Shown here piece after piece: positions 1,935 through 13,193 of a DNA stretch of 21,729 nt. Where the stretch lies: positions 1 to 21,729 of IMG/VR virus record IMGVR_UViG_3300030382_000893; one strand, given 5' to 3'. The stretch comes from a virus. The notes under the pieces were generated by a model. That model saw only the letters and a program-made list of their open reading frames with translations. It had not been told where the DNA came from and ran no database searches. The first letter of the stretch is position 1. Each line of letters begins with the position of its first letter. The position numbers were made by a program, and so were the translations under genes.

Positions 1935-2686
1935 TATGTATATAACTGTGAAATGTAGTCTCTAATTTGTGGATCTAAAGTTCCTTGATCTTGTCGATAA
2001 GGATTATCTACTCTAAATCTTTGAGACCAATCTTGCATATTACCGGTGGATGTATCTATATCTAAACCATCTTCCTCCATTACATTCTGAGCATAAAGAT
2101 CATCCCAGTTATATAGAGATGGAATGTATGGTTTGTCTCCTCTATTAGGACCACTAAATGGATTGTTTTGAGTTGGATTGTATCCCATATCTTCTCTTGG
2201 ACCCATAGAAGAATCCCAACCAGTGCCAAATTTACCAAAAACATCTTTTATTCCTCTGATACCCATACCAATTAATCCACCACTCGTAATATAATTTTTT
2301 ATACCTGTTCCTACTCTTCCTAAAAAACCTTTTGGTGTAGGAGTGTGCCCAGTGCTTGTACTCCTTCCTGGAGGTGCTCCCAACATTGAAATCTGTGCTT
2401 TTATTTGATCTTGAATATGACGTGCTTTTCCATCGTCGTCACCTCTGAATCCACCAGTTGAAGTTGTTCCAGGAGATTTTCCGCCTGGTCCGCCCCAGCC
2501 GCCACCGCCGCCATGACCACCTCTACTACCAGTGCTTCCACCTGTACCACCAAAAGCAAGAGCAAGTCTCATGATTCCTCCAAGATTTGCTTGTATTCTA
2601 CTTCCATAAGTATCGGTCCAGTCTCTTGCGATCTCTGGTTCGTTGGCCCATAGGTATCTTCTTTGCTTCTCTGATTTGAAAGGCAT
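1934..2686 (-). CDS. MPFKSEKQRR-type phage protein with glycine-rich linker (250 aa)
   Basis: The N-terminus (MPFKSEKQRRYLWANEPEIA) matches a short motif I recognise at the start of many phage proteins of unknown function, where it ends near a GGI segment (residues 36-38 here). Residues about 46-70 are a Gly/Ser linker. The middle is basic, and the C-terminal third is Asp/Tyr/Gln-rich with a possible helix at the end (DPQIRDYISQLYT). The start at 2686 overlaps the stop of the 734-residue gene by one base (TAATG). It directly follows the tail-hub gene, so a tail or ejection protein is plausible, but no enzymatic motif was found. Confidence 0.75.
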   Translation of the reverse strand: MPFKSEKQRRYLWANEPEIARDWTDTYGSRIQANLGGIMRLALAFGGTGGSTGSRGGHGGGGGWGGPGGKSPGTTSTGGFRGDDDGKARHIQDQIKAQISMLGAPPGRSTSTGHTPTPKGFLGRVGTGIKNYITSGGLIGMGIRGIKDVFGKFGTGWDSSMGPREDMGYNPTQNNPFSGPNRGDKPYIPSLYNWDDLYAQNVMEEDGLDIDTSTGNMQDWSQRFRVDNPYRQDQGTLDPQIRDYISQLYT

Positions 2687-4890
2687 TATCGTCTTCCTCC
2701 TGCATGTACATCTAACCTAAATGTGCCTAATTTCCAATTAGAATCTACTGCAGTATTAGATATTTTCACTGCAACCGCTCTGCCTCTAGCTCTACAAGAT
2801 TTATACTGGGTAGAAGATGTAATGGTGAATGGTCCTAGTGATGAACTAGCTGCTGTGTCATTTGGAAAATCTCTTAAGTCTAATTCAACAATAGTATTCC
2901 CTGCCTGAGTTAGAAAGTCTGGCAAAAATCTACTTACTCTCATTATATATTCCCCATCTCCTCTAAAAGTAATTCCCTGTTTTTGATCTTGAGTAATGTC
3001 AAAATCTCCCGATAATATATTAGCAGGAATAGCTGCTGTTGTTCCTATTTGAACTTGATTAACTCCTGTTTCATGCTCATAGTAATAAGTAACTCCATCA
3101 CTGTTTCCAGTCACATCAAAAGATGTATCTGTATCGGCATCATAATTAGCGGCATGAGGTAAACCAAAAATAGATGAGTCGATCCACGCCGTTCTTGGAA
3201 AAAGAGAATTAGCATTTGTGTACCAAATAGGTCTATTGATTGTTGAATCTAAATAACTGTATATGACACATCTATTATTAACATTAGAATCTGAAGTAGG
3301 ATAGAACCACAATACTTCCCCAAACAAGTTATTTAATCCACAATAAATCATTTGATTAGAAGTTTTATTTAAATCATCATAAACATAGTCTTCTACTAAA
3401 CAGTCTAAGGATTCTAGCTTACCTGTAAATCTAAAGAAACCATTTTCAGACATCCAGTACGCAGCACCATCAACCTCAATCGATGCATTTTTTCCAATCA
3501 ATCCACAATTGGTCCCTACTTGCTCATAGGCAAAAGTAAAGGGCTGACCTACAAAACGCATGGTAAATAATGAGGTATCTGTCCATACGTAAATTGTATT
3601 TCTCCCTAACTTAGCTCCCATGATCCGTGAGCCGGCAGCCAATCTTTGTGTGCCAGCGCTATTGATTGCAGTAGGTGTCCAAGTGTTGATATCCTCCTGA
3701 GAAGAGAATCTTATAAACATATCATCTTGTGTTGATGTTGTTCCAATTGTTGTTTCTGTTCCAAATAAAACTAAGTGACGATCAGGGGTTGATACAATCA
3801 TATCTCTAGAAGCTGTGGGTGCTCCCGATATGATGGTTGCTCGTGTGGCTGTTGCATTGGATGCATCTGCATCCCATTCAAATACAGCTCCATTACAAAT
3901 TAAAGCAATAGCCGTAGTACCTAAATTATCTAATGACCATAAACCTGGTTCAGCAACTTTATCAGTTGAAGCTGCTGCTTGGCCCCATGCAGCATAGTCA
4001 CTATAATTAGTAACCGTGGCTCCATCAGAGTGGGCGGCTCTTGTTGTTCCTCGAGCAGCTCTGCTTATTCCTGTTAGATCACTTCCTGAAACTCCAGTAT
4101 AAGAAATTTCTTCCGTGCCAACTAAAATATAATTCGTTCCTGTTGTTGGAAATCCAGTTACTGAATCTAAAGTAATACTCGTTCCTGATCCTCCAGTTCC
4201 ATAAACATTGTCTCCTAAAGCTCCATCTAAAGTGTTTGTTTGAGGATTGGTAACTGTTCCACCAAACTGAGATATACCCCAGCCGTAAACTCCAACTTGA
4301 TCAGCCGGACCAACGTGGTAGTATCTATAATAAGTTATTCCTCCAGAAGTTGTGGCTCCTGAGTCAGTTTCAGTAGCTCCCGCATTAATAGTAATAGTTG
4401 TATTAGTAGGTGCAGATAACACCATAAATTTTTTTTCACAAAAAGTATTATCATCAAAAACAGAATCAGTGATTGAAGAAAAAGTAGAAGCAGCCCCAAA
4501 TAAAATTATATCTCCAGCAACCATACCATGAGCGGAACTAAAAGTTATTGTAACAGTTGTGTCTCCATTAGTAGTAGTAAATGCACTGGTAATTGCTGTG
4601 CCTGATGGATTAGTTAAAGGATGGATATCATAATAAACTCCCCCTGAATAAACATATAAAATTCTATTAGTACCTAAGAGGGCATATTTAATACCTTCTT
4701 TATTAACCATATGATGAAGAGCTCGCGTAGGACCTGTTAATTTCTTGTCTCCGAGTGAGGACCAACCCCCTATTTTTTCAGGTGTACCATATCTAAAACG
4801 AACATTTTCCCCACCCGTCCATTGAGCTTCTGCTCCTGTGGGCGTTTTTTGTTTATTAAATCCTGGTAAAAATCCTATCTTCTGAAGCAT
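2686..4890 (-). CDS. Tail hub/nozzle-like protein (P22 gp10 / stabilisation-type)
   Basis: At 734 residues this is the largest protein in the window. Its N-terminus (residues 5-47: GFLPGFNKQKTPTGAEAQW, then VRFRYG and PEKIGGW) is the pattern I associate with the large tail protein of P22/SU10-like short-tailed phages, which forms the nozzle or hub below the adaptor. The body is beta-rich with many WxxT/W repeats, consistent with a beta-propeller. Residues about 238-294 hold an inserted module (FPTTG, then EEISYTG, DLTGISRAARGTT and AHSDGA) that recurs in the 271-residue protein at 14396-15211. Residues 96-135 hold a second beta module (SSAHGMVAGDIILF). A weak AGGAA site precedes the ATG. The family call is moderately secure; the exact position in the tail is inferred. 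Confidence 0.65.
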   Translation of the reverse strand: MLQKIGFLPGFNKQKTPTGAEAQWTGGENVRFRYGTPEKIGGWSSLGDKKLTGPTRALHHMVNKEGIKYALLGTNRILYVYSGGVYYDIHPLTNPSGTAITSAFTTTNGDTTVTITFSSAHGMVAGDIILFGAASTFSSITDSVFDDNTFCEKKFMVLSAPTNTTITINAGATETDSGATTSGGITYYRYYHVGPADQVGVYGWGISQFGGTVTNPQTNTLDGALGDNVYGTGGSGTSITLDSVTGFPTTGTNYILVGTEEISYTGVSGSDLTGISRAARGTTRAAHSDGATVTNYSDYAAWGQAAASTDKVAEPGLWSLDNLGTTAIALICNGAVFEWDADASNATATRATIISGAPTASRDMIVSTPDRHLVLFGTETTIGTTSTQDDMFIRFSSQEDINTWTPTAINSAGTQRLAAGSRIMGAKLGRNTIYVWTDTSLFTMRFVGQPFTFAYEQVGTNCGLIGKNASIEVDGAAYWMSENGFFRFTGKLESLDCLVEDYVYDDLNKTSNQMIYCGLNNLFGEVLWFYPTSDSNVNNRCVIYSYLDSTINRPIWYTNANSLFPRTAWIDSSIFGLPHAANYDADTDTSFDVTGNSDGVTYYYEHETGVNQVQIGTTAAIPANILSGDFDITQDQKQGITFRGDGEYIMRVSRFLPDFLTQAGNTIVELDLRDFPNDTAASSSLGPFTITSSTQYKSCRARGRAVAVKISNTAVDSNWKLGTFRLDVHAGGRR

Positions 4891-4940: not shown

Positions 4941-5687
4941 TCATATTATTTCATAGTCGGAATATTTTTCTATTATATCTTCTGGTAAATAATCACGTAT
5001 ATCATATTTTTGACGTTTAATTTGATCGATTCTTATTTTGTGGAGATTTTCAATCCCATCCTGATAGTATACATCATTAACATTAAACTGCTTTAACTCA
5101 TTATAATGTTTTATTTTAAATCCTATAAAGGCACTTAAATCTTTTAAGAACCTATCCGTGTTATTAACTAAATCATCATAGGAAAATATTTTATAATCTT
5201 CTTTTTCTTTAATTAAATTTTTAATACTCCATATGTTTTTTCCAGTTATACCCTCTGTGCTCATTAATTCTTCAACATATAAGTGAATATTTTCTTTAGT
5301 ATAAATACCATTATCAATCTGTAATTTTGCAAAAGATGCAATACATTCAATAACTGGTCTTATTAATATAATAAATTTTGGTTTTTTAATTAATTGTTTT
5401 ATTATATTTAAGTTATCGGGTGTGCCCCAAGGCGCTCTGTCTATGATTACTTCTGCCTTCCAATCTTTATAATAACTCCCTATAATTGTTTCAATCACAT
5501 TGTTTAAAGATTGGTGATCGGGAAAATTTTGAAATACATCCTTGTTTTTTAATCCACATAAATAATATAAAATCTCTGGAAGTATAGAATTAGCGGTAAC
5601 TTTTATATTTTTATTTTGATTAATAATCGAACTAAACAAAGTATTACCAGCTCTAGGTATGCCACATAAAAAAATTATTTTTTTCAC
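4941..5687 (-). CDS. PAPS-dependent sulfotransferase
   Basis: This 248-residue protein begins with a beta strand and a P-loop-like 5'-phosphosulfate motif (residues 8-22, CGIPRAGNTLFSSII), the signature of sulfotransferases that take sulfate from PAPS. The 3'-phosphate-binding segment is at 105-122 (FIILIRPVIECIASFAKL), with the expected Arg110 and Ser118. A typical helix-and-loop C-terminal half includes KIFSYDDLV. It should be a soluble enzyme sulfating a hydroxyl or amine on a glycan, protein or small molecule; the substrate cannot be read from the sequence. It starts with GTG, overlapping the stop of the last dioxygenase gene by four bases (GTGA), so the two are probably co-translated. 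It ends the accessory cassette and is more AT-rich than the flanking tail genes. Confidence 0.85.
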   Translation of the reverse strand: MKKIIFLCGIPRAGNTLFSSIINQNKNIKVTANSILPEILYYLCGLKNKDVFQNFPDHQSLNNVIETIIGSYYKDWKAEVIIDRAPWGTPDNLNIIKQLIKKPKFIILIRPVIECIASFAKLQIDNGIYTKENIHLYVEELMSTEGITGKNIWSIKNLIKEKEDYKIFSYDDLVNNTDRFLKDLSAFIGFKIKHYNELKQFNVNDVYYQDGIENLHKIRIDQIKRQKYDIRDYLPEDIIEKYSDYEII

Positions 5688-6385
5688 TCGTCCTCTTTAA
5701 ACCAAGGCTCGTCCTTTTTAAACCAAGGAGGTAAGCCTAGATGTGGACGTTTGTCAAACATATTATCCTTAGCTCCCAGTGTTTTTCTATTATGATAGTG
5801 AAGAAATACTTGAATACATTCTTTGCCTTTGAATTTCTCTCTCCAGTGTTCTATTTCACAGCCACTATAAACCAGCATATCTCCTGGTTTTAAATTTACT
5901 TTCAGACCTTTGTTAGGATTTTTTATAAGTCTTTTAGATTCTTCAACAAAGTCCTCTGCACTAGGTTTGACACTTGATTGTCCTGTCGGATCTAAGAAGA
6001 TTGGCCAATGATCACCCCCAAGATTCATCGTGGCAGAAATCTCAGCACCAAATCTATCTTTGTGTCTGTGAAGGAGATCCCCTTTTTTATACATTCTTGC
6101 GTAGCTATAGTTGGGAGTTAGTTTTAAACCTGTTGTTTTTTCCATAACAGGTTGGATTTTTAACAATAAAGTTTCCATAGCAATATCTGCATAAACTGAA
6201 TAGGTATTATAGCATTGCTTATCTTCAAAAGTTCCCATCATTCTTTCAAAAGGAGAAAGATACCGGTGCTGTAGCATAGTAATATAAACTTGTTTTTTTA
6301 TTTTAAAATAATTAGCAAAGAATCCAGCTAAATCTTTTGATATAGCTTGACGAACAATTGTATATTTTTTACTTTTAAAACTCAT
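5684..6385 (-). CDS. 2-oxoglutarate/Fe(II)-dependent dioxygenase (HxD type, 233 aa)
   Basis: The double-stranded beta-helix core shows the iron site: H108-K-D110 (HRHKDRFGAEISATMNL), distal H180 in YSGCEIEHWRE, and a Pro-Gly-Asp turn at 167-169. These dioxygenases couple oxidative decarboxylation of 2-oxoglutarate to hydroxylation of a substrate. The usual downstream Arg that holds 2-oxoglutarate is not obvious; K186, K188 or Q192 lie in that area. The GKECIQVFLHY segment is one I associate with a marine phage/bacterial branch. The extreme C-terminus repeats itself (WFKKDEP then WFKEDE, about 221-233). Its ATG overlaps the previous stop by four bases (ATGA), and its stop overlaps the sulfotransferase start. 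Substrate unknown. Confidence 0.8.
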   Translation of the reverse strand: MSFKSKKYTIVRQAISKDLAGFFANYFKIKKQVYITMLQHRYLSPFERMMGTFEDKQCYNTYSVYADIAMETLLLKIQPVMEKTTGLKLTPNYSYARMYKKGDLLHRHKDRFGAEISATMNLGGDHWPIFLDPTGQSSVKPSAEDFVEESKRLIKNPNKGLKVNLKPGDMLVYSGCEIEHWREKFKGKECIQVFLHYHNRKTLGAKDNMFDKRPHLGLPPWFKKDEPWFKEDE

Positions 6386-6900
6386 GAGTATTCAATATTT
6401 CCACTTACAATTAGTTTTTTATTATCTCTCGCTGGAACAGATTCATGTGGCAATGCACCAAAAAATATTACACATTTTCCAGGTACCGGTTTTGAATCAA
6501 GATAGCGATCATAATAAACATAGGGATAACCTAAATTGTAGAATCTAGTGGCTCCTGAGTTACGACCTCCATCAATATACAGAACAAAAGAATAAGCACT
6601 CTTTTTAATCTCGTGTACATGAATGTTATGGTAATCTGCTATTCCATATTTTTGAATCCATACTTCTTTAAAAATATGTTTTTTCTTATCCAAAAGTTTT
6701 CCTACTTCGGTAACGTACATGTGTAAATAATTTTGTATTTCATTTCTTAAATCTTCTGGTAAAGCTTCATAAAAAGTTGTGTTTAAATCGTTATATCTCT
6801 TCACTGAATATCTTTTTATTTTGTTAAATAATTTTTTATCTATATTTAAATTTGCATAAAATATATCTTGAACAAAAGAGGTATGTGTTATCTTAAACAT
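6382..6900 (-). CDS. 2OG-Fe(II) oxygenase-like protein (HxH type, 172 aa)
   Basis: I chose the ATG at 6900 rather than the upstream ATG at 6966. The shorter form begins MFKITHTSFVQDIFYANL, which aligns in style with the start of the preceding family member, and it overlaps that gene by 8 nt rather than 74. The core has H91, then H94-V-H96 followed by an aromatic strand (SAYSFVLYIDG), a gap, and PGKCVIFFGALPHESVPA with distal H152 and R158. This matches the small 2OG-Fe(II) oxygenase group in which HxH replaces the classical HxD. Activity and substrate are not deducible. Order and overlaps place it in the same transcript as its neighbours. Confidence 0.7.
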   Translation of the reverse strand: MFKITHTSFVQDIFYANLNIDKKLFNKIKRYSVKRYNDLNTTFYEALPEDLRNEIQNYLHMYVTEVGKLLDKKKHIFKEVWIQKYGIADYHNIHVHEIKKSAYSFVLYIDGGRNSGATRFYNLGYPYVYYDRYLDSKPVPGKCVIFFGALPHESVPARDNKKLIVSGNIEYS

Positions 6901-7525
6901 CTTTAGCCATTTGTTTTGGAACTGCTTGTATATTCCAATGGATAAATCTAAAAGGTGTTTTACCATAATCTACACTGTACTCATGCTCCATATAACCTGG
7001 AAATATAATTAAAGTGCCAGGTTGAGGTCTATAATGAACTAGATCATGCCCTGGCCAAATACCTTTAAGATCTGGTTTCATATGTAATTTAGTTGCTCGT
7101 GCTCCTGTTTTAGGCTCATGAAAAACAGGCATAGAAGTGTCTGGTCCACATTTTAAAAAATAAAAACCTGACACATGTTGGTTCCAATGTACATGAGGTG
7201 AATGATGTCCTCCTCCTTTTTTAGCAAACTCTTGCACCCACATTTCAGAAAACAATGTTGTGTATTTATGCATATCATATCCCATATTATCTAAAAACTC
7301 CCAAGACTTATTGCCAATATATTCTCTAAAATCTAAAAAATTATTATCCTGTAATAAGGTTGTTGAATGATAGCTCGTTCCAAAGTCACCATAATATTTT
7401 ATATAATCTTTATTTCTTTTCTTTGCTTCAATAATATATTTATTGGAAGCCTTATTAAGACTTTTTATATATTCTGGTCTGTGTTCTGCCCAAATAGGTG
7501 TAGAAAAATAATTATGTTTTTCCAT
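6893..7525 (-). CDS. 2OG-Fe(II) oxygenase, 2OG_Oxy_5-like (HxH type, 210 aa)
   Basis: The N-terminus (YFSTPIWAE) and core fit the family often described as putative 2OG-Fe(II) oxygenase. The metal segment is HHSPHVHWNQHVSGFYFLK (107-125, H111-x-H113), followed by FHEPKTGAR. The PQPGTLIIFPGYMEHEYSV strand carries distal H181, and PFRFIHWNIQ carries R193. The SGFYFL strand after HxH is the characteristic SGxYY(L/V) signature. It starts one base after the preceding stop, with AGGA close upstream, and overlaps the next gene by 8 nt. The closest neighbour by motif is the next gene, so the pair may be an old duplication. Substrate unknown. Confidence 0.78.
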   Translation of the reverse strand: MEKHNYFSTPIWAEHRPEYIKSLNKASNKYIIEAKKRNKDYIKYYGDFGTSYHSTTLLQDNNFLDFREYIGNKSWEFLDNMGYDMHKYTTLFSEMWVQEFAKKGGGHHSPHVHWNQHVSGFYFLKCGPDTSMPVFHEPKTGARATKLHMKPDLKGIWPGHDLVHYRPQPGTLIIFPGYMEHEYSVDYGKTPFRFIHWNIQAVPKQMAKDV

Positions 7526-7526
7526 G

Positions 7527-8204
7527 TTATCCTATCGTCCGTTTCATTTCTGGTACGGGAAATTTTACTTGCTCTGTATCCCGTCTATAAATTTGATGGA
7601 TAAAAGATACTAAAGTCAATCTACCCTCTGAGACATCTTTATCAAAAAAACCATCCCCTGAATGCCATTGATGTCCATCATAAAGAACTAATCTATTAAA
7701 ACAACTGTCGATCTGTAAACTTTTTTCAAATCTTGAATTATTTTTCTGTAAAGCATTATAAAATTTTTTATCAAATTTTTTATTATTGAGATAATAATCT
7801 GTTCTGATGTTATTAGCTTCTACATCTATGGATCTATGAAAAAATTTTGGTTTATAAATAGAAGTCCCACATCCTTTATGCTGTGATAAATATATTACAG
7901 AAGATAGTTGAGTAGTTGTATCTTTATGAATCCATCCTTCTTTAACATCTTCCCCATAATCAACAAGTTGAAAAAATAGGGATGCCTCCCAAAATAACTG
8001 ATTATAGGTGTCAGGATATATAAGACGCATTATTTTAGTCGTTGCAAATTGAAAAAAGTCTTTGTCAATATGAAATATACTCTTTGTGCGTTTTCCTGGC
8101 CATATGCCCTCGGGATCTTTTTTATAATCTAAACCCGATGCAAACTTAACTACTTTATAAGGATCATCAAAAAAATTATCTACTGTATAAGTTGGAAATA
8201 ACAT
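7527..8204 (-). CDS. 2OG-Fe(II) oxygenase-like protein, DUF6445-type (225 aa)
   Basis: The predicted metal site is H93-K-D95 in WIHKDTTTQLSSVIYLS, with distal H181 in LVLYDGHQWHSGDG and R195 in GRLTLVSFIHQIY, so the full H-x-D...H...R pattern is present. A GCGTSIY turn and the N-terminal NFFDDPYKVVKFA segment are what I recall of the DUF6445 family, a beta-helix group usually predicted to be 2OG dioxygenases. The start overlaps the previous stop by one base (TAATG). Hydroxylation of an unknown substrate is the expected chemistry; nothing in the sequence fixes the target. Confidence 0.7.
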   Translation of the reverse strand: MLFPTYTVDNFFDDPYKVVKFASGLDYKKDPEGIWPGKRTKSIFHIDKDFFQFATTKIMRLIYPDTYNQLFWEASLFFQLVDYGEDVKEGWIHKDTTTQLSSVIYLSQHKGCGTSIYKPKFFHRSIDVEANNIRTDYYLNNKKFDKKFYNALQKNNSRFEKSLQIDSCFNRLVLYDGHQWHSGDGFFDKDVSEGRLTLVSFIHQIYRRDTEQVKFPVPEMKRTIG

Positions 8205-8839
8205 TATTTAAATGGATAGCCTAGATGCCACACGACTAAACTATATCTTGTTCCTTTCGTTACCGGTTTAACTCTATGCCAAATAGATGAAGGAAATACA
8301 ACAATAGAACCTTTAGGCAATATTTCTTTACATTGTATTTTATGTTTGGCTTCATCGCGCATATGAGGGGGATAGTTTTTAAAATCAAATTCTAGCTCTC
8401 CGCCTTCATATTCTGATCCATCTGTTAATTGGCAAGTCATAGATAATTTTCTAATTCTTCCTGTTTGAGGATGGTCCTTACCTTTTTCATATGGTTTATC
8501 ATACGAATCAAAATGCCAATCATAATATTGATTTAATTTATATTTAGTAAATTGACATGACTCTGATCTATCCCATTGAAAATTCCAACCAGCATTGTTA
8601 TTTGCTTTATGTACATAAGGATGTATTTCTTTATATATCCACCTATCATCTAACCAAACTATGTCAGAATGTCTTTTTCTTTTTAAATTTTTAATTCCAT
8701 CTGCAGTTAATTCCTTATCAGTAAAACTACCTGTTCGTGCTAATTTATCTTGGTGAGATAAACCATATTTAATTACTTCATCACAAAATCTAGGAGTTAA
8801 AGCACTCTTAAAATACCAATAATAATAGTTTAAGTTCAT
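8204..8839 (-). CDS. Prolyl-4-hydroxylase/PKHD-like 2OG-Fe(II) dioxygenase (211 aa)
   Basis: This is the clearest dioxygenase of the cassette. H109-F-D111 (YYDWHFDSYD), RKLSMTCQLTD at 130-140, EYEGGELEF at 143-151, the PKGSIVVFPSSIWHRV strand with distal H188, and R198 in GTRYSLVVWHLG give the complete iron and 2-oxoglutarate sites in family spacing. The resemblance is to the P4H/PKHD hydroxylases (PiuC/YbiX-like), which hydroxylate peptidyl or small-molecule substrates in the cytoplasm. The ATG overlaps the preceding stop by four bases (ATGA), directly after a run of ten A. A phage role might be modification of a virion or host surface component, which is inference. Confidence 0.85.
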   Translation of the reverse strand: MNLNYYYWYFKSALTPRFCDEVIKYGLSHQDKLARTGSFTDKELTADGIKNLKRKRHSDIVWLDDRWIYKEIHPYVHKANNNAGWNFQWDRSESCQFTKYKLNQYYDWHFDSYDKPYEKGKDHPQTGRIRKLSMTCQLTDGSEYEGGELEFDFKNYPPHMRDEAKHKIQCKEILPKGSIVVFPSSIWHRVKPVTKGTRYSLVVWHLGYPFK

Positions 8840-9354
8840 TTTTTTTTTAAATAAGTTATAAATAATATAGAATTTAATTGTTCTGATCTATTTTTATCAA
8901 TGTGATATTTTAAAGTTGAAGGGAAAAGAACAAAATCATTGTTATTTAAATTCATCTCTTTTACACAACCTTTAATTCTATTATTATTATATTCAATTAT
9001 GATTCTACAAGAATCTTTTCCAACATTTACTCCATATAAACAAACGTAATCTGGAGATTCTGTTGGATTCATAGGATTCATATGGTTCATAGGTTTAGAA
9101 CGCTCATGGGGAAAATAAAAATCTGATTCAGTACCAAGCTCCTGTAAAATAATATTATGTTTAATAAAAATATGTTCCCTAATATAAGCTCGTAATTTAT
9201 CTAATTCTCTTGAAAAAGGAGTTTCCTTAATTTCTTCAGTGACCCCCTCTTGTAACATATGATGAAATATTGTTTTTCGATCAATCTCAAAATACTCAGG
9301 CATTTTAATTTGACCATGATAAATAGCTATCTCAGATAGTAGAATCTTTCTCAT
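8836..9354 (-). CDS. Degenerate 2OG-oxygenase-like protein (172 aa)
   Basis: The C-terminal half looks like the last strands of a dioxygenase beta-helix: DYVCLYGVNVG, then NNDFVLFPSTLKYHIDKN with H151, and SEQLNSILFITYLKKK. A convincing HxD/HxH is missing; the only candidate is a Met/Asn/Pro-rich stretch with NHMNPMNP. The trailing Arg is not in the usual place. It is therefore either a divergent family member, a non-catalytic relative, or one whose metal site I cannot see. It is the first gene of the cassette, has no ribosome-binding site, and lies just downstream of a candidate promoter. Its last codons are AAA triplets within a run of ten A before the ATGA overlap. Confidence 0.55.
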   Translation of the reverse strand: MRKILLSEIAIYHGQIKMPEYFEIDRKTIFHHMLQEGVTEEIKETPFSRELDKLRAYIREHIFIKHNIILQELGTESDFYFPHERSKPMNHMNPMNPTESPDYVCLYGVNVGKDSCRIIIEYNNNRIKGCVKEMNLNNNDFVLFPSTLKYHIDKNRSEQLNSILFITYLKKK

Positions 9355-9373: not shown

Positions 9374-9402
9374 ATAGTACTATAGGACTGTGTTTTCGTC
9401 AA
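9374..9402 (-). promoter_or_regulatory. Candidate promoter for the oxygenase-sulfotransferase cassette
   Basis: TTGACG (9402-9397) and TACTAT (9379-9374) are separated by 17 nt on the minus strand, matching the bacterial consensus at 5/6 and 4/6. The -35 element lies within the last codons of the 173-residue gene. The predicted start near 9367 leaves only about a dozen untranslated bases before the ATG at 9354, which also lacks a ribosome-binding site, so the first cistron might be nearly leaderless. The prediction comes from the sequence alone. Confidence 0.4.
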
Positions 9403-9901
9403 CAAAAACCCAACCTTGGGTATTATCTGCTTGATGAGCGGATTCGCTCCATTCATACCATTTAGGGCATTTGTCAGCGTCAAATAAAATTTTATTTTCT
9501 GCCTCTTGTTCAGCCGTTAAGGCTGGGGGATCCCCGAGAGGTGATTCCCATTTGGCTGTTGAAGTATTTTTTACCCAAGAACCATATGGTTGTGGTTCCC
9601 AAAAAATTTGATTTGTCGCATCCCATATAAAGCTTATGCCAGCATAGTTTCCTCTAAATGCTTTTGATTGATCATCAGATAAAACAGATAGACCTTCTTC
9701 GTTAGTGCTATAATATTGATTACCACGTGTATTGTAAGAAGTTTTAATCCAAAGATGAGCTGGCCAATTATTATGTTGTTCAAGATATGCTTGACCAATA
9801 GATTCAGTTTCAGTGCCTTCTTCGTCTTTACAATCTTTATCAGCAAGTGTTAAGACTTGTAAAACAACATTTTCTTCAGAAATTTTTGCAAAATGTGCCA
9901 T
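9380..9901 (-). CDS. Tail-associated structural protein, MAHFAK type (173 aa)
   Basis: The N-terminus (MAHFAKISEENVVLQVLTL), the central WIKTSYNTRGNQYY, the GNYAGISFIWD segment and the C-terminal W-rich part (KWYEWSE, GWVFVDE) are the layout of a protein I recognise from many marine phages, notably cyanophages, where it sits beside tail-fibre genes. It has no catalytic motif; aromatic residues dominate the second half. Here it directly follows the glycine-rich fibre gene with a 4-base gap and no clear ribosome-binding site, so coupling to that gene is likely. A fibre-tip or fibre-associated role is the best reading from context. Confidence 0.7.
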   Translation of the reverse strand: MAHFAKISEENVVLQVLTLADKDCKDEEGTETESIGQAYLEQHNNWPAHLWIKTSYNTRGNQYYSTNEEGLSVLSDDQSKAFRGNYAGISFIWDATNQIFWEPQPYGSWVKNTSTAKWESPLGDPPALTAEQEAENKILFDADKCPKWYEWSESAHQADNTQGWVFVDENTVL

Positions 9902-9905
9902 GATA

Positions 9906-10919
9906 TTAAGATTGATATTTGTATCGTATCACTACGACTCCACTTCCTCCAGCACCTCCAGGATAGTTATCGCTATATCCACCTGAGCCGCCGCCTCCGC
10001 CGCCGCTATTAGCTTGAGCAGAAGCACCAGCATTTTTTCCACCGTTAGCTGCACCTCCGCCGCCGCCTAGGCCACCAGCTGGTTCTCCGCCGCCGCCTCC
10101 GCCGCCGCCTTTAGTTATTCCACCTGTAATAATTTCTGTTGTAGCTGCTTGACCACCTGGACCACCATTTTTAGCTCTTGGTGGACCACCTGTTGCATTA
10201 GTACCAGTGTTAGTAGCGCCTCCGCCACCTCCACCTGATGAAGTTGCTCCAGCACCACTACCGCCAGTATTTCCTTGTGGGGGACTTGTAGGAGGAGTAT
10301 TTCCTGTTCCTCCTGGACGTCCCATACCACCGCCGTGGTCAGCTGATCCGCCGCCACCGCCTGAGCCGCCATCTAATCCTGCTTCTTTTCCTTTTGATCC
10401 TCCGCCACCGCCGGCTGAAGTTATTGGAAATGCGCTTGAAGCTGATCCACATCCACCGTCACCGGTTCCTGGACTTGAAGCGCCACCTGCGCCAACTGTA
10501 ATTGGATAACCTGTTGCTGAAACTGCTACGGCACAACCACCTGCAAGTGGACTTGCTGTGTAGCAACCTGCTGCTGCACTAGGGGATTCTCTAAATCCTC
10601 CTGCGCCGCCTCCTCCGCCACCATATCTACGAGATCCTCCACCGCCAGCTCCACCCGCCACTACGAGCCAAGTTACACTGTTAGAACCATCTTCATCTCC
10701 TGCGCATGATACGCAAAAGGTTCCGGGACTATTAAATGTGTGCATTTTATAAGCACCACAAGTGGTTATACAACCTCCTGTAGCTGTTACGAATTTTGCA
10801 CCCGCACCTCCAGCTCCAAAGCCTAATACTTGATAACCAAAACCTTTAGTTTTTGGTCTAATTGTTCTTTTCTTGTCTCCTTTTATATTAGGAAAGGATC
10901 CTAGTTTTATATCTCTCAT
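9906..10919 (-). CDS. Glycine-rich tail fibre / adhesin-like protein (337 aa)
   Basis: After a basic N-terminus and a Cys-containing segment (Cys50, 54, 69, 72), residues 59-90 carry the KMHTFNSPGTF and VTWLVVAGGAGGGG signature of glycine-rich domain proteins. Residues 90-325 are then about half glycine in runs of up to eight, separated by short Ser/Pro/Asn/Thr turns, ending GGSGVVVIRYKYQS. The start and end motifs match the glycine-rich domain known in phage fibre tips and adhesins. Polyglycine-II packing, as in T4-type receptor adhesins such as S16 gp38, is a reasonable structural model. GAGGAA lies before the ATG. GGC/GGA runs make this locally the most GC-rich and repetitive part of the window. 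Likely receptor-binding. Confidence 0.75.
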   Translation of the reverse strand: MRDIKLGSFPNIKGDKKRTIRPKTKGFGYQVLGFGAGGAGAKFVTATGGCITTCGAYKMHTFNSPGTFCVSCAGDEDGSNSVTWLVVAGGAGGGGSRRYGGGGGGAGGFRESPSAAAGCYTASPLAGGCAVAVSATGYPITVGAGGASSPGTGDGGCGSASSAFPITSAGGGGGSKGKEAGLDGGSGGGGGSADHGGGMGRPGGTGNTPPTSPPQGNTGGSGAGATSSGGGGGGATNTGTNATGGPPRAKNGGPGGQAATTEIITGGITKGGGGGGGGEPAGGLGGGGGAANGGKNAGASAQANSGGGGGGSGGYSDNYPGGAGGSGVVVIRYKYQS

Positions 10920-12218: not shown

Positions 12219-13193
12219 TTATGGTGGAGTAACTTTACTCCAACTACCGCCTTGTGTAGCTGTTTTTTTACTCCAACTACCACCCTGGCTTGGAGTTACT
12301 TTTTCCCATGCTATTGGACCACCAATCTGTCCTAGACTAATAGTAGCAGAAATACCAGTTAATCCTATAGACATTTCTGTCGGAGAAATTGATCCTACTC
12401 CAGTAGTTGCTACTCCTGCAGTTGATAATCCTATAGCCATTTCTGTTGGAGAAATAGATCCAACTGCACTCGTTGCTCCTACTCCACTTATATCAAATAT
12501 TTGTGCATCACTAACATCTACCGATCCTACAGAAGAAGTAGCATCTACTCCTGTTAATCCCACTGCATCTGCTGGTGCAATCGCACCGACTGAAGCCGTA
12601 GCGCCTTGACCACTTAAACCTATTACCATTTCAGTTGGTGCAATTGCTCCTACTGAAGATGTTGCTCCTACTCCACTTAACGAAACCGTTGGTGATAATA
12701 TAATAGTTGGTGTACCTAGACTTGAAGTAGCACCTACTCCTGTTAAACCCATTACGTCTGCTGGTGCTAAATAATACTCACCACCCCAACCAGTTGAGTC
12801 AGATCCCCAAGTTTGATATCCCCATCCTACATTTGGAAGAGATGCTGTAAGACCATCAGGAGCTGTTATTTCTAAAGTTAATCCCGATTCACCCCAGTTT
12901 TCTACACCCCAATCATTATCACCCCATCCTGCATTTATTTCAGTTGTGACTGTTGCAGTTCCTAAAGAAGAAGTTAATCCAAAACCAGTTTCAATAATAA
13001 TGTTTGGATCATAACTATCGCCCCATGGTTCTTCACCATAAGCATCACGACCCCATCCTTGTTCAGCATAAGCTACTAAATCGCCAAGAGATGTTGTTGC
13101 TGATAGACCAGTAAGTTCTGCTGAATTATTATCTTGTTCACCCCAAAGACCTTGCCCCCAGGTTGTGCCGGTTCTGTTCCAAGTATTAGCCAT
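12219..13193 (-). CDS. Repeat-rich tail protein with Trp-Gly and GLTGVGATSSLG repeats (324 aa)
   Basis: Residues 1-140 contain repeated Trp-Gly pairs (TWGQGLWGE, QGWGRDAYGEEPWGD, GWGDNDWGVENWG, GWGYQTWG, GWGGEY) separated by GLxxSLG-type strands. Residues 149-288 contain seven units resembling GLTGVGATSSLG, spaced about 21 residues with connectors such as AIAPTEMVI. The C-terminus has two GGSWSK copies. No enzymatic motif is present. The architecture suggests an elongated repeat fibre or spike in the tail. I recall such proteins in marine phage structural blocks without a known function. It has an AGGGAG site upstream, and the last seven codons form a perfect inverted repeat. Confidence 0.7.
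   Translation of the reverse strand: MANTWNRTGTTWGQGLWGEQDNNSAELTGLSATTSLGDLVAYAEQGWGRDAYGEEPWGDSYDPNIIIETGFGLTSSLGTATVTTEINAGWGDNDWGVENWGESGLTLEITAPDGLTASLPNVGWGYQTWGSDSTGWGGEYYLAPADVMGLTGVGATSSLGTPTIILSPTVSLSGVGATSSVGAIAPTEMVIGLSGQGATASVGAIAPADAVGLTGVDATSSVGSVDVSDAQIFDISGVGATSAVGSISPTEMAIGLSTAGVATTGVGSISPTEMSIGLTGISATISLGQIGGPIAWEKVTPSQGGSWSKKTATQGGSWSKVTPP
12225..12242 (-). repeat. 8-bp perfect inverted repeat at 3' end of the repeat-rich tail gene
   Basis: TGGAGTAA and TTACTCCA are separated by two bases and overlap the final codons of the gene. The RNA could fold into a hairpin just before the stop, though the 2-nt spacer would open the top pairs. No T-run follows, so it does not look like an intrinsic terminator; mRNA 3'-end protection is possible. 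Confidence 0.4.
12326..12750 (-). repeat. Degenerate tandem coding repeats (about 63-bp period)
   Basis: This stretch encodes residues 149-288 of the repeat-rich tail protein. Seven units of roughly 21 codons carry the core G-L-T/S-G-x-G/D-A-T-S-S-L/V-G. The units are clearer in protein than in DNA, where synonymous differences have accumulated, so the array is old rather than freshly duplicated. Confidence 0.7.

Follow-up and report, generated by a model that had tools for sequence, protein, structure and literature searches.

Why should a marine phage keep a dense run of dioxygenase genes among the genes for its fibres? Dioxygenase genes are common in marine phages, where they are unexplained and usually filed as host-metabolism genes. 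The question is raised by the window studied here, a 21,729-base fragment of a virus (IMG/VR record IMGVR_UViG_3300030382_000893) in which the minus strand carries every recognised gene. Seven consecutive and translationally coupled open reading frames (ORFs) occupy positions 9354 to 4941 of that strand. We call them gA to gG in the order of transcription. Six encode proteins of the 2-oxoglutarate (2OG) dioxygenase type, the first of them apparently without its iron ligands, and the seventh encodes a predicted sulfotransferase. We envision, at a probability of about 45%, that they form a late cassette of the fibre module, whose products would modify side chains of the fibre or of other virion proteins by hydroxylation and sometimes by sulfation.

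A fibre-side slot for dioxygenase genes

To avoid selecting relatives by their cargo, we fetched 80 viral contigs by the downstream structural gene (phrog_3287) alone. Twenty-nine of these span the whole interval from gene t10931 to that structural gene, t2686. All 133 ORFs matching dioxygenase profiles in the 29 contigs lie inside the interval, at 1 to 10 per contig and 0.82 per kb, and none lies in the other 182 kb, which is mostly structural sequence, the contigs being cropped around the bait. Pfam backs the profile calls, placing 65 of 96 broad-class ORFs in PF13759 and 26 in PF13640. In the pelagiphage HTVC023P, too, dioxygenase genes occur only in this interval (74% of the genome scanned). 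The core gene order is conserved as fib9380-gA-gB-gD-gF, where fib9380 is the small gene at the upstream border of the array. The fibre module thus has a standing slot for such cargo, all the dioxygenase ORFs being confined to one interval. The first-pass annotation had described the genes as inserted in a tail-gene block; in fact there was no one-off insertion, since dioxygenases are present in the slot of each relative whose interval is complete. It had also named as a refutation that in related phages these genes would be scattered and never found with a sulfotransferase. Instead, the runs recur together in the same tail-gene slot, accompanied by a sulfotransferase in a minority.

Runs of phage dioxygenases are in fact already known, 24 such enzymes being reported from the S-SCSM1 genome (PMC9602691). 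The run of HTVC023P (gp64-gp67 and gp71) occupies the same slot, and its versions of gA, gB, gD and gF are 42, 75, 77 and 67% identical to those of the window, which additionally has gC and gE in the run and the sulfotransferase; its gA homologue, gp64, is annotated as a hypothetical protein. The pelagimyophages HTVC008M and Mosig EXVC030M carry five and six consecutive 2OG-type genes, homologues of gB and gF among them, on an unrelated myovirus backbone and with neither gA nor a sulfotransferase in the run. Wittmers et al. 2022 paired 2OG oxygenases with 'ferrochelatases', described the oxygenases as often nearby but not adjacent, and did not mention a sulfotransferase (PMC9599517). A dense array is therefore normal for this phage group (HTVC023P, HTVC008M, Mosig), and all that remains uncommon in the array that had been called unusual is the sulfotransferase and the exact combination.

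The content of the slot turns over quickly. Relatives such as L100-L103 have a structural gene 88-92% identical to that of the window, yet very different cargo. In L103 and L101 most flanking tail genes remain at 83-94%, with t10931 at 66% in L101 and t12219 at 54-62%; fib9380 falls to 31-38% where present and the enzymes are replaced. Two much closer contigs, L008 and L009, match the window at 98-100% identity along most of positions 6900-2600. In its N-terminal and central part their gF is a different allele, with 55-86% identity at 6350-5950, and gB of L009 also diverges, mostly to 85-89%. The divergent alleles, at 6350-5950 in gF and 8860-8300 in gB, have sharp edges. This pattern suggests recombination confined to the enzyme genes in a near-identical population. 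Exchange also reaches further: gB, gD and gF are 44-58% identical in HTVC033P, whose capsid and tail genes have no detectable homology to those of the window except for a weak fib9380, which points to transfer between unrelated phages. Families of the array lie beside fibre genes in HTVC033P and in the myoviruses HTVC008M, Mosig, P-RSM4 and S-RSM4.

The slot also holds other kinds of enzyme, namely four tryptophan halogenases, four NodU-type carbamoyltransferases, two JmjC_2 and two Sulfotransfer_2 proteins. We further observed slot proteins of about 500 residues (L112:135-1640, L141:4147-5667, L172:3787-5265, L154:7533-9008 and L102:2133-3629); by motif or appearance only, those of L112, L141 and L172 have an N-terminal Rossmann motif and that of L102 resembles a carbamoyltransferase. 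The halogenase, carbamoyltransferase and sulfotransferase companions are what one would meet in a natural-product tailoring cluster, and SnoN and TlxI, both from natural-product pathways, are among the top folds matched by array proteins (see below). Even so, it is very unlikely that these genes make a small molecule or a modified peptide, given that we recognised neither a scaffold-making enzyme nor a precursor peptide in the window and that the genes sit among virion genes.

The dioxygenase-fold proteins

The genes are packed tightly. The gA/gB junction is an ATGA with a 4-nt overlap and the gB/gC junction a TAATG with a 1-nt overlap; gC and gD are separated by a 1-nt gap, gD and gE overlap by 8 nt if gE starts at 6900 as is likely, gE and gF again meet in ATGA, and gF meets the sulfotransferase gene in GTGA. 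These junctions, read on the sequence, bear out the very short spacing noticed at first pass. Scans of the array region for promoters and terminators gave nothing clearly above shuffled sequence. The motif count given at first pass, two HxH (gD, gE), three HxD (gB, gC, gF) and one degenerate (gA), was an exact match to ours. Profile searches and models placed most of the genes in the dioxygenase superfamily as had then been proposed, gB to gE by Pfam or PHROG and gA and gF by fold, and the view taken then that the members are not simple copies of each other is supported.

Four of the genes were placed by their families, with alignments built from the fetched viral contigs. The HxD protein gB (8204..8839, minus strand like all genes here; 211 aa) matches PF13640 at 5e-16, and H109, D111, H188 and R198 are invariant in 40 aligned members. 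gC (7527..8204; 225 aa), an accessory gene, is an HxD protein of the DUF6445 type (PF20043, 7e-20), with H93, D95, H181 and R195 invariant in 22 aligned members; hhalign relates it to the PF13759-type set at 95.6%. gD (6893..7525; 210 aa) is an HxH protein matching PF13759 at 8e-12, and its H111, H113, H181 and R193 are invariant in 36 aligned members. Both gB and gD score above the Pfam cut-off. The arginines R198, R195 and R193 follow the distal histidine, at the usual 2OG-binding position. The second accessory gene, gE (6382..6900; about 172 aa), is open from a mechanical start at 6966, and we infer the ATG at 6900 from the sequence and from a homologue of about 172 aa (L010). It is an HxH protein that matches phrog_81 at 2e-19 and PF13759 weakly, below threshold, at 1e-3. 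Across 96 related ORFs of its type, the first HxH histidine, H120, and the distal histidine, H176, are nearly invariant, and the window sequence has a lysine about 10 residues after the latter.

The next gene, gF (5684..6385; 233 aa, HxD), belongs by a match of 1e-44 to phrog_2954, a family named 'ferrochelatase'. It has no Pfam match, and the ferrochelatase domain PF00762 is absent at E<1. An AlphaFold model built from a 58-sequence alignment (predicted local distance difference test, pLDDT, 90.2; predicted template-modelling score, pTM, 0.86) matches the prolyl-4-hydroxylase (P4H) of Pseudomonas putida in Foldseek at 4.5e-8, and VIA gives Z scores of 16.3 for SnoN and 15.6 for both P4H and PHD2. 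Nearly all the structural neighbours listed are 2OG-type enzymes, and no ferrochelatase is among the matches listed. H108, D110 and H180 are invariant in the 58 members. The HxD...H triad is equally invariant in nine further phage relatives, most of them annotated as ferrochelatase (from Syn30, S-SSM5, S-SM1 with two copies, S-H9-2, Mosig, HTVC008M, HTVC033P and HTVC023P). PF00762 was found in none of nine phage genomes carrying a gF gene, against 8 of 14 control genomes. The fold, the invariant triad and the absence of PF00762 rule out a ferrochelatase. Judged by model and alignment, gF is a P4H-like protein of the 2OG-dioxygenase fold. It shares with P. putida P4H and with PHD2 of the hypoxia-inducible factor (HIF) pathway the fold (Z about 15.6) and the invariant HxD...H; it differs from them in being only about 9-16% identical and in having no conserved basic residue where 2OG is canonically bound. 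Its relation to gB rests on the fold, because hhalign gave no match between the two.

The depositors of the 023Pt_psg01 record had hedged, naming this gene 'putative ferrochelatase / putative Fe(II) dependent oxygenate superfamily protein'. Phage genes that bear the name 'ferrochelatase' (phrog_2954, T4-GC 615) thus encode proteins of the 2OG-dioxygenase fold, and phrog_3531, likewise called 'ferrochelatase', matches dioxygenase-type proteins too. Other PHROG names were set aside because the matched genes are of the 2OG type: Endonuclease V or DNA endonuclease (phrog_274, phrog_2297) and minor coat protein (phrog_1644).

The name matters for one explanation of the whole array, namely that these are auxiliary metabolic genes shifting the 2OG and nitrogen balance or the iron and haem metabolism of the host. 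Such proposals have been published for cyanophages and pelagiphages (PMC3037559, PMC9599517, PMC11561400): bulk consumption of 2OG was proposed in the first, 2OG oxygenases with 'ferrochelatase' partners were described in HTVC023P-type phages in the second, and a seasonal enrichment of 2OG oxygenases and 'ferrochelatase' genes in the third. The haem link depends on a name that fails for gF, and bulk use of 2OG explains neither why a slot should hold as many as 10 different enzymes nor the dead member, the sulfotransferase and the fixed fibre-side position. We give a metabolic role little credence here. Because the phage 'ferrochelatase' is by model and alignment a 2OG-dioxygenase-fold protein, the published iron and haem interpretations it carries in pelagiphages and cyanophages need correcting.

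The first gene of the array, gA (8836..9354; 172 aa), has no Pfam match and only a PHROG match of 0.003, to an unnamed family. Its AlphaFold model (51 sequences, pLDDT 89.0) has TlxI, 3bvc, PHD2 and P4H as top Foldseek matches, with a VIA Z score of 15.6, and each of its listed Protein Data Bank neighbours is either of the 2OG type or an uncharacterised protein. Compared by hhalign with 96 PF13759/PF13640-type proteins, it reaches a probability of 90. The FPSxxxH motif has become FPSxxxY, with Tyr150 at the position of the distal histidine, and across 51-52 members neither an HxD nor an HxH is conserved. Because the metal ligands are absent in all members examined, gA is by fold and alignment a pseudo-enzyme rather than a dioxygenase. 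It is conserved, and its constant neighbours argue that it is not a decaying gene. The fetched contigs contain 89 copies; where the upstream neighbour could be tested, the first recognised gene was fib9380 in 79 of 83, and on the downstream side it was gB in 78 of 88. Its top Foldseek match, TlxI, belongs to the TlxIJ heterodimer, a fungal meroterpenoid oxygenase in which catalysis belongs to TlxJ alone and TlxI helps it as an auxiliary subunit (PMC12141560). By analogy gA may be a partner of an active enzyme. The two proteins are about 11-13% identical.

A conserved yet catalytically dead member also speaks for another explanation, in which the dioxygenase-fold proteins are virion parts, such as adhesin or cap domains built on a beta-helix barrel, in which catalysis has been lost or is secondary. 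The array sits among structural genes and the PHROG of gC is named 'minor coat protein'. Purely structural domains would not be expected to keep the triad invariant, as it is in gB, gC, gD and gF, or nearly so, as in the gE-type set, and we regard this explanation as quite unlikely. As judged from family profiles, alignments and the gF model, gB to gF are five proteins of the 2OG-dioxygenase fold or family with an intact iron triad.

The sulfotransferase and its host

The last gene, gG (4941..5687; 248 aa, GTG start), matches PF13469 at 9e-7 and PF00685 at 5e-6, confirming the terminal sulfotransferase dependent on 3'-phosphoadenosine-5'-phosphosulfate (PAPS) that had been called at first pass. 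The PRxGxT motif of the 5'-phosphosulfate-binding site (5'-PSB; P11, R12, G14, T16) and R110 and S118 of the 3'-phosphate-binding site (3'-PB) are invariant in 23 members, so that gG is predicted to be a PAPS-type enzyme with intact PAPS sites. The nearest profile matches among solved structures are CurM (1e-11) and tyrosylprotein sulfotransferase (TPST) 1 (8e-11), a similarity that includes the PAPS-binding motifs. At the position of the TPST catalytic glutamate, E99 in human TPST2 numbering, gG differs in having Asn33, and the profile consensus also has Asn. The acceptor cannot be named because this glutamate is lacking, and tyrosine sulfation is not claimed. A pattern-based and weak scan of GTDB gave no cellular relatives of gG. 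Of all 34 sulfotransferase loci, most directly adjoin a dioxygenase; in three loci the sulfotransferase comes before gA rather than after gF.

Judged from its genes, the record represents part of a pelagiphage of the HTVC023P type: the capsid protein is 69% identical to that of HTVC023P over 300 aa, most other structural genes are about 39-58% identical, and their order is largely kept. This synteny makes SAR11, the commonest bacterium in the ocean, the likely host. Could such a host supply PAPS? Most SAR11 lack assimilatory sulfate reduction (PMC5069961); the text of that paper gives cysDNCHIJ as absent, and its Table 3 lists cysC and cysQ in HTCC1062, with aprA present. PAPS could possibly be made through AprBA and CysC. 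Among 23 SAR11 genomes that we searched, 16 have Sulfotransfer_3 proteins, two a full-length APS kinase (adenosine-5'-phosphosulfate kinase) match and one an ATP sulfurylase; 15 more of the 23 have only partial matches to APS-kinase-like kinases. In one genome (G014, contig C1:110356-112618) an APS kinase lies beside a sulfotransferase. These genes suggest that sulfation chemistry exists in some SAR11 and make a PAPS supply in the host plausible; the objection that the sulfotransferase cannot work because SAR11 has no PAPS is not upheld, given that cysC, cysQ and aprA are listed and that some genomes have an APS kinase. Separately, a P-loop kinase was seen in the slot of one relative (L107:1466-1930). 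We do not call it an APS kinase, as the match covers only the first 92 positions of APS_kinase.

Two further observations concern the rest of the window. A Cpn10/GroES co-chaperonin (20890-20438; PF00166, 1e-10) is 47% identical to gp36 of HTVC023P, and a structural gene at 12219-13193 has internal DNA repeats that align with one another (about 74-83% identical) and is rich in WG and GL motifs.

What the cassette may act on

The surroundings of the array bear on its substrate. On the fibre side, fib9380 (9380..9901; 173 aa, phrog_7759) forms the upstream border, and next to it lies a gene for a glycine-rich fibre or adhesin protein (9906..10919; PF21722 Gly_rich_2 5e-11, phrog_2295), a candidate substrate. 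On the other side, 50 nt separate gG from a virion structural gene (2686..4890; phrog_3287, 1.6e-95), the downstream border of the slot. Of the placement between fibre and tail-hub genes proposed at first pass, the fibre side holds, and the downstream gene is a 'virion structural protein' with no support for a tail hub. In many marine phages a homologue of fib9380 immediately follows a fibre or structural gene, and the protein looks like a fibre-tip or assembly factor. Its co-occurrence with gA has a Fisher p of 0.027, confounded by relatedness. Its family is represented in pelagi-, cyano-, roseo- and methylophages, some with dioxygenases close to it and some not. We did not adopt fib9380 as the sole substrate, as it also occurs without nearby dioxygenases.

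We propose that the products of the cassette, whose expression is presumably late to judge from gene position, would modify side chains on the fibre or other tail proteins of the phage itself while virions are being assembled. Each dioxygenase would have its own residues or proteins to hydroxylate, gA would assist without catalysis, as a partner or as a guide for the substrate, in the way that TlxI assists TlxJ, and the sulfotransferase, where present, would add sulfate from host PAPS. The fast exchange of genes among relatives would then yield a combinatorial surface chemistry. The placement in the slot, the conserved order, the exchange of cargo, the other tailoring enzymes and the prolyl-hydroxylase-like fold of gF are all consistent with a virion substrate.

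Several points weigh against this proposal. Hydroxylation and sulfation of the virion are predicted from gene content, placement and models. In gF no basic residue is conserved about 9-14 positions after the distal histidine, and only R182, at +2, is invariant, so that its use of 2OG is not assured. Fibre genes of the same kind occur without a nearby dioxygenase in Greip, HTVC025P and CRP-143. Relatives of gG are present in only 8 of the 80 contigs, each time with dioxygenases. Finally, the enzymes gB, gD and gF (75, 77 and 67% identical to those of HTVC023P) are better conserved than the fibre (42%), fib9380 (45%) or the fibre and nearby structural genes as a set (about 39-49%), which could mean that the substrate is more constant than the fibre.

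That last point is also an argument for the main competing explanation, that the cassette alters the surface of the infected cell (lipopolysaccharide or other glycans), blocking superinfection or aiding release. Hydroxylation, carbamoylation and sulfation are known steps of glycan tailoring, the carbamoyltransferases and sulfotransferases of the slot belong to enzymes known to act on sugars, and the Sulfotransfer_3 proteins of SAR11, in one genome beside an APS kinase, also count in its favour. A virion substrate agrees better with the strict placement in the fibre module and with the joint exchange of cargo and fibre genes; moreover, six of the seven genes are of the dioxygenase fold and the window cassette has no glycosyltransferase. 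We consider a host-surface role unlikely, if the most serious of the competitors.

In the open-licence literature searched, we found neither a description of the fibre-side slot as a rule nor any mention of the conserved pseudo-dioxygenase, of a sulfotransferase in the array or of the correction to 'ferrochelatase'. The strict fibre-side placement, the rapid exchange of gene sets, the dead member and the sulfotransferase turn the puzzle of marine phage dioxygenases into a specific and testable idea, that of modified virion proteins. More tentatively, the fibre-side slot of pelagiphages as a whole might be a dedicated, combinatorial island of chemical modification, in which dioxygenases, a dead partner and an optional sulfotransferase, tryptophan halogenase or carbamoyltransferase rewrite the surface chemistry of the phage's own fibre. 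If true, it would be a phage analogue of glycoprotein tailoring, in which host recognition is diversified by post-translational chemistry and not by sequence.

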